IMG/VR virus record: IMGVR_UViG_3300025120_000037 | Coordinates: 1 to 64,000 of that record | Source of the DNA: a virus | Length of the DNA stretch: 64,000 nucleotides | Strand: one strand, 5' to 3' | Shown: in pieces, positions 20,585 through 40,263 of the stretch | Position numbering within the stretch: position 1 is the stretch's first letter | Layout: the number at the start of each line of letters is the position of its first letter | Notes under the pieces: generated by a model | The model's database searches: none | The model's input: the letters and a program-made list of their open reading frames with translations, nothing else | Told to the model about the DNA's origin: nothing | Position numbers and translations under genes: made by a program

Positions 20585-20613
20585 AAAAGAGTGTGTATTT
20601 GCAAACACACTCT
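20582..20613 (-). terminator. intrinsic terminator, leftward transcripts
   Basis: Nine-pair perfect stem AGAGTGTGT / ACACACTCT with an 8-nt loop. On the minus strand it is followed by six T (AAAAAA at 20583-20588 on the plus strand). It would end the SSB-side leftward operon before nblA. On the plus strand no T-run follows, so it is not a canonical terminator for nblA, though the hairpin would sit at the 3' end of its mRNA. Confidence 0.8.
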
Positions 20614-27229: not shown

Positions 27230-27256
27230 AAAAAAATAAGGCGTCCTAAGACGCCT
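27230..27256 (-). terminator. intrinsic terminator touching the polA start codon
   Basis: On the minus strand AGGCGTC-TTAG-GACGCCT (27256-27239), seven perfect pairs with a 4-nt loop, then TTATTTTTT and at once the ATG of polA (27229). It would end transcripts from the gene at 27281-28102, or act as an attenuator for polA. Confidence 0.75.
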
Positions 27257-27280
27257 CAAGAATAACTGCGTTGTGTGAGA

Positions 27281-28640: not shown

Positions 28641-30179
28641 TCAACGTAAAGACTCTTGAAACAATTTTGCGTTTGAGGCTTCGCAGTTGACGTCAACATC
28701 GCGTACATAGTCACAAAACCTGTGACACCAGTGATCTTCCACACCTATTACAAAAGCTGTCCATTGAATCCCTTTAGTAGCTTTGAACTCTTTAATCCGT
28801 TTTAAATATGCTTCGGAAACTTGAGATTGACCGTCTGTAATCATCAATACATCCGCCTTTTCCCTAATAACCGCTTTATCCACCGCGTGGTCGATCACAG
28901 CTCCAAAACTAGTTCCACCTTGGGTAACCCAGGACATAATGAAATCCAGTAATTCATTATTATCTTTTCCACCTGGTTGGAGAGTGATGCTTTTCTGGAT
29001 ACAAGTATCAAAAAGATGAATTTGTACTTCTCTCTTTTGCTGTAAGCAATCTTCTGCGACAACCATAGAAATAGCTTTTGACCATGTCTCTGCTAGTCCC
29101 ATCATTGATCCGCTTATGTCTACGTATAGAACTACAGGACCTTTGCATAAGTTTTTGGTTTTAGCCTCGTAGTCTTTAGTAAGAATTGTTTTTTGAGCAT
29201 ACTTGAGAGCAAATAACGCTCTACCTGCTTCTGTGCCAGCGAGAGCGAGCTCCGTGGGGAATGCTTTGACTACTTCATTAGAGAATTTCGCACCGACAAT
29301 ATCGGAGTAATTACTTCTCGCTGCAACAGCCTTCTTTCTTTCTCTCCAAGCTGTCCTAAGTGCTCCAAGTTTTTTAATGAGTTGTTTGAGATTTTTGTTT
29401 TGTTTAAGTTTTTTTGAAAGTTTTTTCTTTTCGTTTATGTCATTTAAATGGGTACCTACTCCCGCGTGGCAGCCTGCAAGTTGTTTAAAGGCTTCCTTTA
29501 AATCCTTGCTTTCTTCTTTGGCTTTGTCCACGCTGCGTTGAATTTCAGGTTTTAACTGTTCGACAGCTTTTTTAGACAGTGATTCGGTTTGTTTTACAAG
29601 ATCCTTACCTTTAATTCTTTTTTCAGCGGCAAGTTTTAAATCTCCTCTCTTCTTTGCTTCAGTAAATTCGTTTCTAATTATTTCAAGTTCCTCTTGAACT
29701 TTACCTAAATCATTAGGCAGCTCACCGTCTGTAATTTGTTTATGTATAAGCTCGCTTAAATCGTTGAGAATATTCATTGCGTTATTACCAGAAAGAAACT
29801 GATCACCTATTGAGTATTTAATAAGCTCATTCCACGCAGCACTGTTGCAGATCTCGGAAAAAAGGTTCAACCAAAATGCGTTTTCTGGTTTGTACCCTTC
29901 GGGATAATCTGGCTCCTCTTCGTCCTGCTTAGCTTGAAAATATTGTTCAGCGTCATCAAGACTGACCAACGTAGTTACCTCTCCTCCGTTATAGATGTAA
30001 TCAAAAAGTTCTTTTCCAAAACGAGATAGTTGTTTTAAATCATAAAGTTCTTCGATGTATTTAATTTGAGGCATAGAGTCTCTTACAAAGTCATCCCAGA
30101 GAAAACTGCCAAGTGCAGAAACATTTATAACGAGTGGATCTGCATCTGCAAGCCTAAGAAAATCGTTTTTTGTATTCAT
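28641..30179 (-). CDS. VWA-domain protein, ViaA-like
   Basis: 512 residues, ATG 30179 overlapping the stop of the MoxR gene (ATGA). The first 330 residues are helical and highly charged, including Lys-rich coiled coils. The C-terminal von Willebrand A domain has a complete metal-ion site: VLYVDISGSMMG (about 350, D-x-S-x-S), TQGGTSFG (the Thr of the site, about 425) and MITDGQS. In cells ViaA-type VWA proteins work with RavA-type MoxR ATPases as chaperone-like machines acting on metal or membrane complexes. Here the partner gene is directly upstream. Confidence 0.85.
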   Translation of the reverse strand: MNTKNDFLRLADADPLVINVSALGSFLWDDFVRDSMPQIKYIEELYDLKQLSRFGKELFDYIYNGGEVTTLVSLDDAEQYFQAKQDEEEPDYPEGYKPENAFWLNLFSEICNSAAWNELIKYSIGDQFLSGNNAMNILNDLSELIHKQITDGELPNDLGKVQEELEIIRNEFTEAKKRGDLKLAAEKRIKGKDLVKQTESLSKKAVEQLKPEIQRSVDKAKEESKDLKEAFKQLAGCHAGVGTHLNDINEKKKLSKKLKQNKNLKQLIKKLGALRTAWRERKKAVAARSNYSDIVGAKFSNEVVKAFPTELALAGTEAGRALFALKYAQKTILTKDYEAKTKNLCKGPVVLYVDISGSMMGLAETWSKAISMVVAEDCLQQKREVQIHLFDTCIQKSITLQPGGKDNNELLDFIMSWVTQGGTSFGAVIDHAVDKAVIREKADVLMITDGQSQVSEAYLKRIKEFKATKGIQWTAFVIGVEDHWCHRFCDYVRDVDVNCEASNAKLFQESLR

Positions 30180-31351
30180 GATTCAACCTCAGAGATTGAT
30201 TTTATAACTGCTGTCATAGATGTGTTTACCTCTCTAGCTAGTCTCATTGCTGACTTACGGTCTTCCATAGTCAGTCGATCTGAAAGAATCCTGTCTAACC
30301 TCTCTTCGCATATGGCTAAGTCTTTGTGCATTTTTCTAAGTTGTATAACAAATTTATTTAACTCAGTGACAGTCTTTGCTTCCCCTCTATGAAAAGAGTG
30401 GAACTCTGCAAGCACTCCGCTGTGAATACGTTTTAGATCTGTAATAAGTTTGCTGTTTGTAGGAACGACTTGTTCTAGAACTTCTTTAACTACGTTTATG
30501 TCGTCTGTATTTTTATAAACAATATGTTTGAGTGAACGATGAAGATGTTCTGGATATACCTGATCCTCACCTTGAACAACTGCCCATCCTTTCATAAATT
30601 TAAGAATCTGAACCCGACGTCGATCAGAAACAGAGATTCCTCGATTATTAAGCATGTCCATAATTTGCCCAAATTTATCTAAAAACTCTTCACTTACAGT
30701 TATATTTTCAAGGTATTTTTGAAGCGCTAAGAGATCTTTAAATACTAAATTTGATTCAACTGTTGGTCGCTCTTGAGCATTAACTGCCCATGTGTCTAAT
30801 CGGCGCTTAGAGGTAGGTTTCTTAAGAAGCTCAACCGTGGGCCGAAAGAGAAACCTGTCGCAAAATGCGGCTAAAGACTCTTCAGTAGGGAAAGAGTTAG
30901 TCGCGGCTACAACAGATTGAATTGGTGTTGTTAGTACCTCTCTACCGTTATTAAATGTCCTCTCATTTAGGATTGTTAACAAACTGTTAAGCACAGCACT
31001 GCTCCCTCTAAACAGCTCATCGAGGAATGCAATATTACTCGACGGAAGATAGCCTTCGGTATCTCTGGTGTACTCATCTTTAAGCAATTTGCTTACTGCA
31101 ACAGGACCAAACAGCTCTGATGGATCTGCAGTTGGGGAAAGAAGATAACCGAAATAAATACTGCCTTTAAATCCTTTAGAAATTTCTTTTACAAGTTCGC
31201 TTTTACCTGTACCCGGTACCCCAAACAAGAATGTATTTTGTTGTGTAATAAGAGAAGCAAGCACTCCGTCAATTACATCTTCACGTTCAAGAAACCTTGA
31301 GTTAAGTGAAGCTCGAAAGTTTTGTAGGTTTGTAAAAAGAGTGTCGTTCAT
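30176..31351 (-). CDS. MoxR-type AAA+ ATPase, RavA-like
   Basis: 391 residues, ATG 31351. Walker A is FGVPGTGKSEL (Gly44-Ser51), Walker B IAFLDELFRGSS (107-117), followed by LNSLLTILNERTFNNG, which is diagnostic for the MoxR/RavA clade; sensor 1 is VVAATNSFP (about 148-155) and DRFLFR carries the arginine finger. The C-terminal 150 residues are helical. It should form a hexamer that remodels targets together with the VWA protein. It overlaps the next gene by 4 bp and the preceding coiled-coil gene by 1 bp, so stoichiometric expression is likely. Confidence 0.9.
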   Translation of the reverse strand: MNDTLFTNLQNFRASLNSRFLEREDVIDGVLASLITQQNTFLFGVPGTGKSELVKEISKGFKGSIYFGYLLSPTADPSELFGPVAVSKLLKDEYTRDTEGYLPSSNIAFLDELFRGSSAVLNSLLTILNERTFNNGREVLTTPIQSVVAATNSFPTEESLAAFCDRFLFRPTVELLKKPTSKRRLDTWAVNAQERPTVESNLVFKDLLALQKYLENITVSEEFLDKFGQIMDMLNNRGISVSDRRRVQILKFMKGWAVVQGEDQVYPEHLHRSLKHIVYKNTDDINVVKEVLEQVVPTNSKLITDLKRIHSGVLAEFHSFHRGEAKTVTELNKFVIQLRKMHKDLAICEERLDRILSDRLTMEDRKSAMRLAREVNTSMTAVIKSISEVES

Positions 31352-37274: not shown

Positions 37275-37586
37275 TTAGTTCCAGTAGTTGCCGAGTTCGA
37301 ATTCTGCTCTGTAGTTAGTAGCTAGTTGTTCAGCTACAAACAAGCGCATAGATTTAGGGAACGTATTACGTAGTCCCTGAGTCATACTGCAACATGTAAG
37401 GAGATAATCCTTTGCAGCAGGTAAAACTAGATTGCGTTCAATATATTTAACCGCAATCTCATAGCTAAACTCGCCGCGTTTGTGAAACTTAGAGAGGCAT
37501 TTTCCTACGGTGTTTGCATGTTCACCGGAGAAATTGCGAGCATGAAGTTCTAGTTCAGTCGCTGCGTGGCAGTCAAAATCAGTCAT
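37275..37586 (-). CDS. hypothetical helical protein, first gene of the small-gene operon
   Basis: 103 residues from ATG 37586 (a GTG at 37595 would add three residues). Helical with two Cys pairs (KDYLLTCCSMTQGLR) and conserved-looking HARNFSGEHANTVGKCL. Not recognised. It is the promoter-proximal gene of the leftward small-gene run; upstream lies the hairpin-dense region. Confidence 0.65.
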   Translation of the reverse strand: MTDFDCHAATELELHARNFSGEHANTVGKCLSKFHKRGEFSYEIAVKYIERNLVLPAAKDYLLTCCSMTQGLRNTFPKSMRLFVAEQLATNYRAEFELGNYWN

Positions 37587-37616
37587 GAGAATCACCTGTA
37601 ATTTGATGTGAATGTG

Positions 37617-38087
37617 TGAGGGAGAATCCCTCAGTTTGTCTTACTAAATAAGAGACAAAAGGAGAGAAACATCATGATCATAAATGATCAAGTTAATTAC
37701 AATTAACTAATCCAATCGGGACCGCGTAAGAGTTACATGGTCCCGAAGGAATAGAAAATCAGGAAACTTTACTCAAATAAAAGCAAAGCATTGTGTACAT
37801 TATGCACATAAAGTGCAAGATTTGATGTTATTTAGGCCACAGAGTGGGCCATTGTGTCCAGACCGTGTCCAATGAACACGCGGGAGAGAACAGAACCCTT
37901 TCTAGCACTGGTGTTTGAATGTTTGCGTACCTGCTTTAAAGACAGATACGCGGCATAGGAAGGACTTCCCTAGGTGTCTGTATATACAGCACACCTAAGA
38001 GAGATACAAAATTCCTATCAACAAGTGGTCGGTACCTTACAACATCCCTAGGGGAGAGGCTCGACGCGAGCGGGATTGCGCCACTTG
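37617..38087. other. hairpin-dense noncoding region at the strand switch
   Basis: The stretch 37587-38093 has no convincing gene on either strand and contains at least seven perfect or near-perfect inverted repeats: TGAGGGA/TCCCTCA (37617-37633), TTTGTCT/AGACAAA (37635-37659), TGATCAT/ATGATCA (37675-37690), AGTTAATT/AATTAACT (37691-37708), TCGGGACC/GGTCCCGA (37716-37746), GCGTA...TACGC (37925-37951), TAGGTGT...ACACCTA enclosing CTGTATATACAG (37971-37997), GCTCG/CGAGC (38059-38071), all within CAAGTGG...CCACTTG (38022-38087) for the last. It may be a structured leader RNA of the leftward operon or a replication origin. Confidence 0.6.
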
Positions 38088-38093
38088 CTGAGA

Positions 38094-38291
38094 ATGTATA
38101 TGTATCTTACTCATCCATCCTTTCCAAGCTTCGCGGCCTCGCGGCATCACGCTACTGACTGGAATGAGTTCGAATTGTCTAGGTGCTTGATTGAAAGCCT
38201 ACCATATCGGTCAGCTTTCGGGAACCCCGAAGGGTTAGTGATGCATTGTCTAAGGGAGCGGCTCGGCGTGGTAACCGTGCATTGCCTTTGA
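38094..38291 (+). CDS. 65-residue hypothetical protein (tentative)
   Basis: ATG 38094 to TGA 38291. Composition is protein-like: WNEFELSRCLIESLPYRSAF, NPEGLVMHCLRERLGVVTVH. The ESLPY...FxxPexLVxHCLxxRLGV pattern looks like a conserved short protein, but the frame lies within a region of strong hairpins (CTTTCGGG/CCCGAAGG at 38215-38233), so it could be chance. It begins 6 bp after the CAAGTGG...CCACTTG structure. Confidence 0.4.
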   Translation: MYMYLTHPSFPSFAASRHHATDWNEFELSRCLIESLPYRSAFGNPEGLVMHCLRERLGVVTVHCL

Positions 38292-38401
38292 CTCCTTTAA
38301 GATCTCATGAATCAGGGACGAATGGGAGAAGTGTGTGACGCTTATGTGATTGGCACACTAGGTGCGGACCATGACCTAGAGATAAATGAAACGCGCGCGT
38401 G

Positions 38402-38475
38402 ATTAAACCATGCACTCCCTCCCCCTGTCAATAGTTAGCAACACTTTGACATAAGGCATAGGAAGCCTCTTTCAT
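38402..38475. promoter_or_regulatory. divergent sigma70-type promoter pair
   Basis: Leftward: TTGACA (38426-38431 on the minus strand), 18-bp spacer, TTTAAT (38402-38407). Rightward: TTGACA (38446-38451), 18-bp spacer, TTTCAT (38470-38475, weak). The two -35 boxes form an inverted repeat 14 bp apart. The leftward promoter would transcribe the hairpin region as a leader of about 800 nt before the gene at 37586. The remaining sequence from 38292 to 38694 has no other gene. Confidence 0.5.
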
Positions 38476-38602
38476 CAAGTCACACTGCCCCTTCACATAT
38501 GTACCCGCAATGTGTAATTTTCTCCTGCCCGCAATGACCCTTTTTTTTATATATGCGCTTATATGACGACGAGGGCGAGAACAGTCTGTCTATCTTCTGG
38601 GT

Positions 38603-38618
38603 ATTTTGAGGTCAAAAT
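38603..38618. repeat. perfect palindrome ATTTTGA-GG-TCAAAAT
   Basis: Seven-pair inverted repeat with a 2-bp centre, 77 bp before the first rightward gene (38695). Candidate operator for the rightward block. AT-rich sequence with TATAGA and TATAGT (38624-38637) follows it. Confidence 0.45.
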
Positions 38619-38694
38619 GTTGTTATAGAAGTATAGTGACACAGTTTGAAAAAAAATTTTGCACGGTAAACTAGGTAAAGACTGTTTATTGCTC

Positions 38695-40263
38695 ATGGAT
38701 TCTTTAGGTAGGACTGATATAGGTTTCTTTAAAGATTTTTTTCGCGATTACAAAAATCGTATGGAGGCTGCACCTGCATTTAAAGCAGGTATTGACGCTG
38801 AAGGTATTAATTACCCTGGAAAAGACGAAGTTATTAAAAAATATTTAGATTATAAAAACAGCGGAATGACTCAATCAAGCCAAAGCGCTCGTGAGTTAGT
38901 CGAAACTTACATTCCTTACAGAGACCGCGTGGCAGAAGACTTACGAAGTAGAGGTTTTCCTGATATTCAATCTGGATTAGAAAAATTCGAGGCCGATACA
39001 GGAGTTAGAGACTATTCTGAACCTACAGACAGAAAAGTTCAAAGCTACAACTATGCACAACCTATACACGAACTGTTATCACATCAAAGACCATATGAGT
39101 TAGGGATGGCACCTGATTATCGCGATTTTTATGCCGGTACAGACCGAAAAGGTAATCCAGTCAACATAAAATCAAACAGTATAACTCCTATTAACGAAGA
39201 GCTAGCTACAGATTTGGATCATAATCGATACCGCGGACTTGTAGGTAAGAAACCATCAAAACTAGAGGCAATAACCAGAGGTGTTTTTCCAGATATTATG
39301 AAAATGAACCTAGAGGAAAGTAATGTTTTAGACGAAGATAGTCTGCTTTTGCTGCCCACACGTATGGACCTTCAGTATCCAGGGGGGCTTTCAAAGGCTG
39401 CATATGATAATAACTATAATTCAGTTGAAATATACCCTTCTACAGAACAAGTCGATGCAGATGTACCACGTATTTCCGAGTTGCTTATAGATAAGTACGT
39501 AAAACCTATGAATCGAAGATTTGCAGGTTTGCTTACTACACAGTTTCCAGGAGTTAAAACAAATGTAAGAGGTCTAAACGATATAGATAGTCTTCTAGCT
39601 TTAATAGAGACTTATGAAGGTAAACCTACTAATCGTTCACAACATTTTTACGGTACTCTTTTACCCGGTGTAACTCCAGAAACTATTACTAGAATGGCTG
39701 GGGACATCAGACGCACACCGTCTTCTTTGTTGCCTGGTTTTGCTGATTTGATTCCTAGTGCCGAAGCAGTTCGCCTTGGCTATGAAAAAGACCCTGCCGC
39801 TATGGGAAAGCAGATGGCTAAGGATTTTGCAGCTGGTATTCCTTTGTCAGCAGCTTTGACCCCTATTCTTGCTAACCCGGCTGTAGCTCCTTTTGCTCCT
39901 GGTATTGGAGCAGGTTTATTAGGAGTTGCCGGTGGTGAGGCAGTTAACGAAGTTGTAAAACAAGAAACTGGTAAGTCACTAATTCAGAGATTCCAAGAAA
40001 CTATGGGCGCTGCCGGTGGGGATACAACGATTATAGGTAAGGCTCGTAGACCTGTACCCGACAAAAAATTTGTGCCTGATAATAGACCTTATGAGACTCC
40101 TCAAATTACTCAGATGTCACCTGCTGATGCAAGTCGGATGGAAGTCGAGCGCAAAGCAAAACAAAACGAGAATGAATTTCAACGACGTCTACGGTCAGCT
40201 AAAGAGGCTCGTCAATTAGATCCGTATGATTTTGGTGTAACTGAGCTTCTTTTTGGAAGGTAA
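38695..40263 (+). CDS. large internal virion-type protein
   Basis: 522 residues from ATG 38695 (the frame is open to TTG 38659). Most is soluble and helical. A Gly/Ala/Pro-rich hydrophobic patch at about 380-425 (AALTPILANPAVAPFAPGIG, then AGLLGVAGGEA) looks membrane-active; the C-terminus is basic and charged (FQRRLRSAKEARQLDPYDFG). No named domain. The mix of charged helices with one glycine-rich hydrophobic segment recurs in several later genes (42.6, 48.2, 48.7, 49.4 kb) and fits proteins stored in the head and ejected with DNA. First gene of the rightward late block. Confidence 0.65.
   Translation: MDSLGRTDIGFFKDFFRDYKNRMEAAPAFKAGIDAEGINYPGKDEVIKKYLDYKNSGMTQSSQSARELVETYIPYRDRVAEDLRSRGFPDIQSGLEKFEADTGVRDYSEPTDRKVQSYNYAQPIHELLSHQRPYELGMAPDYRDFYAGTDRKGNPVNIKSNSITPINEELATDLDHNRYRGLVGKKPSKLEAITRGVFPDIMKMNLEESNVLDEDSLLLLPTRMDLQYPGGLSKAAYDNNYNSVEIYPSTEQVDADVPRISELLIDKYVKPMNRRFAGLLTTQFPGVKTNVRGLNDIDSLLALIETYEGKPTNRSQHFYGTLLPGVTPETITRMAGDIRRTPSSLLPGFADLIPSAEAVRLGYEKDPAAMGKQMAKDFAAGIPLSAALTPILANPAVAPFAPGIGAGLLGVAGGEAVNEVVKQETGKSLIQRFQETMGAAGGDTTIIGKARRPVPDKKFVPDNRPYETPQITQMSPADASRMEVERKAKQNENEFQRRLRSAKEARQLDPYDFGVTELLFGR

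Follow-up and report, generated by a model that had tools for sequence, protein, structure and literature searches.

The question raised by this locus is what about 800 gene-free nucleotides are doing at the point of a viral genome where leftward and rightward genes diverge. The window, that is the whole stretch of 64,000 nucleotides that was analyzed (positions 1 to 64,000 of IMGVR_UViG_3300025120_000037), belongs to a virus record of 68,126 bases in which the terminase shares 51.6% identity with its counterpart in Synechococcus phage S-EIV1 (KJ410740, Arctic freshwater); S-EIV1 displays the same arrangement, with leftward replication genes and rightward structural genes. A previous sequence-only reading had proposed a structured noncoding RNA, a multi-hairpin riboregulator or the replication origin. 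The interpretation that we favor, with a probability of about 0.58, is that in this S-EIV1-like cyanophage the region would serve as untranslated leader to the leftward transcription unit, which holds the replication genes, and, by analogy with known boxA-bearing leaders, would load the host Nus antitermination complex. The elements that frame the region are as follows.

37587 to 38395, minus strand: structured untranslated leader RNA, predicted to be transcribed from the promoter up to the first leftward gene (ORF scan, z score of the minimum free energy, homologues).
37275 to 37586, minus strand: gene of 103 aa that opens the leftward block, with an AGGTGAT Shine-Dalgarno sequence upstream.
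38695 to 40263, plus strand: divergent gene of 522 aa, read rightward and syntenic in relatives.

The leader is followed by about 22 kb of mostly leftward genes. The 103-aa protein has no Pfam or PHROG matches, and the divergent protein found no relatives when used as query; neither tRNA nor tmRNA genes were found in the window. The replication block also carries (28641-31351, minus strand) a MoxR-type AAA ATPase (bpMoxR, PF20030) adjoining a protein with a weak von Willebrand A domain, a pair that is usually bacterial.

The stretch 37587-38395 is free of genes, as had been claimed, the longest ORF in 37600-38650 being of 71 aa. Folding of the leftward strand of 37590-38440 gave a minimum free energy of -273 kcal/mol, with a z score of -6.3 against dinucleotide shuffles, the other strand having a z score of -5.3; for an 800-nt core the values were -6.9 for the leftward strand and -3.7 for the opposite one. 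As a control, 11 other 850-nt stretches of the window, folded on both strands, ranged from -3.1 to +0.2, well above the -6.3 of the leftward strand; the description of the region as hairpin-dense holds. When 250-nt pieces are folded, the region ranks with the most structured parts of the 64 kb, though it is not the only one; much of the folding signal comes from long-range pairing and a small part from AT-rich palindromes. Moreover, the leftward strand had the lower z score in 14 of 16 members of the family described below (means of about -4.4 vs -2.65), these members being related and partly truncated, so that family counts are not counts of independent events. The extent originally assigned to the element stands for its gene-free part; it falls short on the right, where the conserved region reaches about 38658 and takes in the divergent promoter region, with these elements:

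38402 to 38431, minus strand: promoter TTGACA-N18-TTTAAT, with the -35 TTGACA at 38426-38431 and the -10 TTTAAT at 38402-38407.
38574 to 38595, minus strand: 5' block AGATANNCAGACNNTTCTCGCC, conserved in the alignment and lying within the divergent regulatory region, upstream of the promoter.

This promoter had been placed by the sequence-only reading on the minus strand at exactly these coordinates, and its -10 is conserved: in ten relatives it reads TTTAAT, TACAAT or TATAAT, with a conserved G-rich spacer ahead of it and a CGCG-rich stretch after it, while TTGAC at -35 is retained in only some. The promoter is supported by these comparisons. The leader and the genes after it would be transcribed as one unit.

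The hairpins of the leader are listed here in coordinate order, that is, from the 3' end of the predicted RNA.

37617 to 37633, minus strand: hairpin H4 (TGAGGGAgaaTCCCTCA / TGAGGGATTCTCCCTCA), an inverted repeat with no U-tract after it on this strand.
37635 to 37659, minus strand: hairpin H3, an inverted repeat in which 5 of 14 pairs covary.
37675 to 37690, minus strand: hairpin or palindrome H2 (TGATCATAAATGATCA / TGATCATTTATGATCA), an inverted repeat with invariant core pairs.
37691 to 37708, strand unstated: inverted repeat with arms AGTTAATT/AATTAACT, seen in the sequence.
37700 to 37760, minus strand: hairpin H1 (TCGGGACC...GGTCCCGA), in the same place in nearly all members.
37925 to 37951, minus strand: hairpin GCGTATCTG...CAGGTACGC of the predicted fold, with a related hairpin in L008, L009, L011 and L294.
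37978 to 37989, minus strand: AT palindrome CTGTATATACAG at the tip of the stem AGGTGT...ACACCT (sequence and predicted fold).

All the inverted repeats previously reported, including four placed back to back within 37617-37708, were recovered in their places, as was the AT palindrome within a longer stem. Folding with covariation across related phages had been suggested as a check, and both H1 and H3 covary. H1, in the 3' domain, is a strong hairpin in nearly every member, its sequence differing between clades; within clade A, changes on both sides were seen in 7 of 18 pairs, a result reached by none of 500 shuffles, and controls with the pairing slid gave 0 or 1. For H2 and H3 together (11 sequences) there were five pairs changed on both sides, all of them within H3, whose covariation score was reached by 0 and whose pair count by 3 of 500 shuffles, slid controls again falling far below; since the sequences compared are related, these shuffle counts are not probabilities. 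The core of H2 is invariant and thus speaks neither for nor against pairing. The automatic alignment of the 3' domain (MAFFT/RNAalifold) misregistered H1, which was trimmed and counted separately, and owing to module exchange the alignment is reliable only within H1-H3. The covariation of two hairpins of the 3' domain, together with the greater stability of the leftward strand, argues that the region acts as RNA. H4 is closely followed by the Shine-Dalgarno sequence of the first leftward gene; in L008, L009 and L012 the arms of H3 and H4 overlap.

About 15 relatives of the region were found in IMG/VR, located ahead of the leftward gene block. The 103-aa protein retrieved 12 loci whose upstream regions align in part with that of the window, and the 5' block used as search pattern added L071, L072, L077, L079/L093, L084, L086, L088, L092, L094 and L101. 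A different first gene (MRNIEIQMNN...) follows the leader in L071, L079 and L101, and a third one in L294, the neighboring genes being otherwise largely syntenic; the element therefore belongs to the start of the operon and not to one gene. Throughout the family the -10 and the end domains are kept, and whole middle modules are swapped.

38010 to 38186 (approximate limits), minus strand: swapped module; this middle part is unrelated to that of the closest relative, L002, and the flanks are alike.

Between L002 and the window the flanks are 94-97% identical, and about 175 nt of the window are exchanged for about 220 unrelated nt, which in turn are 83% identical to L006. In both versions the exchanged piece starts close to a boxA-like word, L002 having boxA at the start of the module. 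Further middle modules are common to L053, L101 and L071, and missing from L079 and L092. Among isolated phages BLASTN with the leader of the window gave no match; in S-EIV1, inspection by eye revealed a similar 5' block (CCCTTCTCAC...AAAAAAAAAGGG) at the same place, followed by a shorter leader in which boxA was not found at the threshold used.

The sequence-only reading overlooked this swapping of cassettes, as well as the boxA signal and the link to the early-operon leaders of other cyanophages to which we now turn. The word GAACCTTGACAAT recurs across the leaders of the family. In the 16S-23S spacer of cyanobacteria, boxA is GAACCTTGAAAA and the adjoining D4 is CTGCATA (PMC8461337). We found the pattern GAACCTWGAMAAYTGMATA in 37 of 116 cyanobacterial genomes, the small ones (1.6-3.2 Mb) having mostly GAACCTTGACAACTGCATA, 63-335 nt before the start of the 23S gene; because the same word precedes 23S in the hosts, we take the phage word as host boxA. 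Using the two host words only, the sense strand of 17 sequences contained 9 exact copies (in 8 members) and, allowing up to one mismatch, 17 copies in 13 of the 17; none was found in antisense at up to one mismatch in the same 17 sequences (shuffle mean 0.1). Within the family, leaders carry one to three copies. The four sequences lacking a copy at this threshold are L092, the distant L013, L012 (a fragment of 250 nt) and the window itself, with two mismatches.

38168 to 38186, minus strand: boxA-like element GCACCTAGACAATTCGAAC, with the core GCACCTAGACAA at 38175-38186, position-homologous to boxA in relatives.

The core differs by two mismatches from host boxA GAACCTTGACAA and is thus a degenerate copy, whose 19-mer score is not significant by itself, since shuffling the leader of the window 300 times reached it in 50 cases. 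Nevertheless, it is identical in 15 of 15 positions (AGCACCTAGACAATT) to the boxA of phage DSL-LC07, so that the copy is supported by its position in the family and by this identity, not by its own statistics.

Two comparisons were framed as tests able to fail. A scan of IMG/VR with the boxA-D4 19-mer, made independently of the leader, gave 49 stretches; among them, the pair L294/L290 turned out to be a further member of the family, with the 5' block, an exact boxA, H1-H3 and 83% identity to L077 over the best stretch. The second was a comparison with T7-like cyanopodoviruses: the leader of L294 matches S-CBP1 and DSL-LC07 with 81-83% identity over 64-79 nt, a shared module of about 65-80 nt, and the matched places lie in gene-free regions of 0.9-1.1 kb that immediately precede the early genes, with the orientation preserved. 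These early leaders carry GCACCTAGACAATTGCATA in DSL-LC07 and GAACCTCGACAACTTCATA in S-CBP3 (0 of 300 shuffles each), and GCTCCTTGACAACTTAATT in S-CBP1 (2 of 300 shuffles); boxA was not found on the other strand of the three. They resemble the window family in being gene-free over 0.85-1.1 kb before early genes and in their sense boxA, except that the S-CBP3 stretch holds one small annotated ORF on the opposite strand; however, they fold less strongly (z -0.7 in DSL-LC07, -2.8 in S-CBP1) and lack overall sequence homology to the window family. In T7-like phages it is the host RNA polymerase that transcribes the early genes, and a host boxA in their leaders fits with this.

Regarding bacterial genomes, scanning with the boxA 19-mer yielded mostly non-rRNA contexts, with 23S downstream in 7 of 80 loci. 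In a few cyanobacterial loci that were inspected, boxes of this type lie upstream of large tRNA arrays (L129, L144, L148, L152; some directly after promoter-like sequence), ahead of a cyanobacterial CRISPR array (L226), and inside group II introns (L165; by context also L140 and L124); the genome of L124 (Candidatus Paraprochloron terpiosi) holds 59 copies of a boxA-like 15-mer, at least one of them in a group II intron-like context. A group II intron was itself considered for the phage region, given its GTGTG start and the occurrence of the motif in cyanobacterial group II introns, and was rejected as RF00029 is absent from the leaders and was found only in L165. A different recurrent context (GAACCTTGACAACTGAATAGACCAAGACAGGACATTAACCATTTG) surrounds the 19-mer GAACCTTGACAACTGAATA in Anaerococcus, Peptoniphilus and relatives, with no 23S nearby (L113, L114, L126, L130-L132 and others).

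The main rival to a leader that acts on transcription is a stand-alone giant structured noncoding RNA in the style of GOLLD or ROOL, which would itself be the product, boxA serving only for the completion of a long untranslated RNA as in rRNA, tRNA arrays and CRISPR arrays. A length of 0.8-1.1 kb, the extensive structure and its retention before different first genes speak for it, and we consider it unlikely but worth keeping in mind: the 3' end has no terminator U-tract, H4 lies close to the Shine-Dalgarno sequence of the first gene, and a middle part that is unrelated between close relatives would be odd for an RNA with a single fold. Nor did the region match any Rfam family in a scan of the window; the scan of 16 loci gave only tRNAs, outside the region, with ROOL and the other families unmatched above the gathering score, and the GOLLD model (RF02032) hit none of 11 records at E <= 10. 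A gene-specific attenuator or riboswitch controlling the 103-aa gene would account for the overlapping arms of H3 and H4 in L008, L009 and L012, where the two hairpins would be mutually exclusive, and for the conserved segment directly before the start codon, but L071, L079, L101 and L294 have this leader in front of another gene, the U-tract is absent and the element is much longer than known attenuators, so that we give this option little credence.

Hardly more probable is a replication origin, alone or within the leader, with the hairpins acting as DNA. The divergent point, the AT palindromes and a minimum of the cumulative GC skew at about 33-35 kb are compatible with it, although any boundary between divergent genes should produce such a minimum; moreover, 14 of 16 members fold more stably as the leftward RNA, G-U pairs occur at varying stem positions, and a repeat scan found no iterons, direct repeats appearing only as pairs of 8-11 nt. 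From the options initially offered, a structured RNA made leftward from the named promoter is upheld by the covariation, the asymmetry between strands and the conserved -10; we saw nothing that points to an origin. Several IMG/VR contigs end inside the region, which would suit a packaging or terminus site; their end points are scattered, for which reason we rejected this idea as very improbable. L005 and L086, for instance, are the two ends of one 80,498-bp contig (IMGVR_UViG_3300046170_000464) whose overlap inside the leader spans 750 bp at 98.9% identity, as fits assembly breaks in a hypervariable region of a permuted genome; these and the many other contig ends in the region are probably assembly breaks at variable modules.

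For the Nus-loading leader that we prefer, the following course can be proposed. Host RNA polymerase would start at the sigma-70-type promoter at 38402-38431 and, ahead of the first gene at 37586, would produce structured RNA of about 800 nt. This leader is a mosaic of hairpin modules with conserved ends and, in the family, the boxA of host rRNA operons. If it works as rRNA operons, CRISPR leaders and lambda nut do, NusB-NusE would bind to boxA as the RNA emerges, NusA and NusG would join, and the polymerase would then withstand terminators and pause sites, both in the structured leader and in the operon behind it. Two sites could be plausible obstacles:

27237 to 27258, minus strand: terminator-like hairpin within the leftward block, close upstream of the DNA polymerase gene; a possible target of antitermination.
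20588 to 20613, minus strand: second terminator-like hairpin inside the leftward block.

Such sites showed no excess over shuffles when the leftward block was scanned. To our knowledge cyanobacteria have no Rho, and the leader would therefore help to overcome intrinsic termination, pausing or misfolding. A boxA of 12 nt does not need a leader of 800 nt; the RNA must therefore do more, or be tolerated.

As a broader and more tentative proposal, these RNAs might form a class of modular early leaders, spread as cassettes over unrelated cyanophage lineages, which would imitate the host rRNA leader and draw the antitermination complex of rRNA operons to the early operons of the phages, the exchanged modules perhaps adding separate functions, possibly related to host or defence. 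Control of early genes in cyanophages is little understood, and the literature that we searched contained no antitermination signal for them. If the antitermination reading is right, a copy of the host rRNA boxA stands at the start of cyanophage early operons, an idea directly testable in the isolated phages S-CBP1, S-CBP3 and DSL-LC07.

Compared with known systems, the leader is like the giant phage RNAs GOLLD and ROOL (PMC12286853) in being large (near 800 nt), elaborately folded and phage-encoded, and unlike them in its modular swapping, its position at the head of an operon, a window without tRNA genes and the lack of an Rfam match. The lambda nut (boxA-boxB-boxC) and HK022 put RNAs are, as we suppose for the phage leader, cis-acting elements at the head of early operons that alter RNA polymerase; our leader is about ten times longer and its boxA is the host consensus word; lambda nut further includes the boxB hairpin and works with the N protein, the likeness drawn here being in boxA and in the place at the head of the operon. 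BoxA has also been described upstream of CRISPR arrays (Stringer et al. 2020, as cited in PMC7862264). There too it stands before a long untranslated RNA, and L226 has the same motif before a cyanobacterial array; in the phage, protein genes follow instead of repeats. With respect to the cyanobacterial rRNA boxA-D4 of the 16S-23S spacer (GAACCTTGAAAACTGCATA / GAACCTTGACAACTGCATA), the phage differs in using boxA in the leader of a phage operon, in up to three copies, with a D4 half that often is not CTGCATA and a degenerate copy in the window; nevertheless, the phage leaders carry the same 12-nt word, in its GACAA variant as in small cyanobacterial genomes, likewise in sense and within an untranslated RNA.
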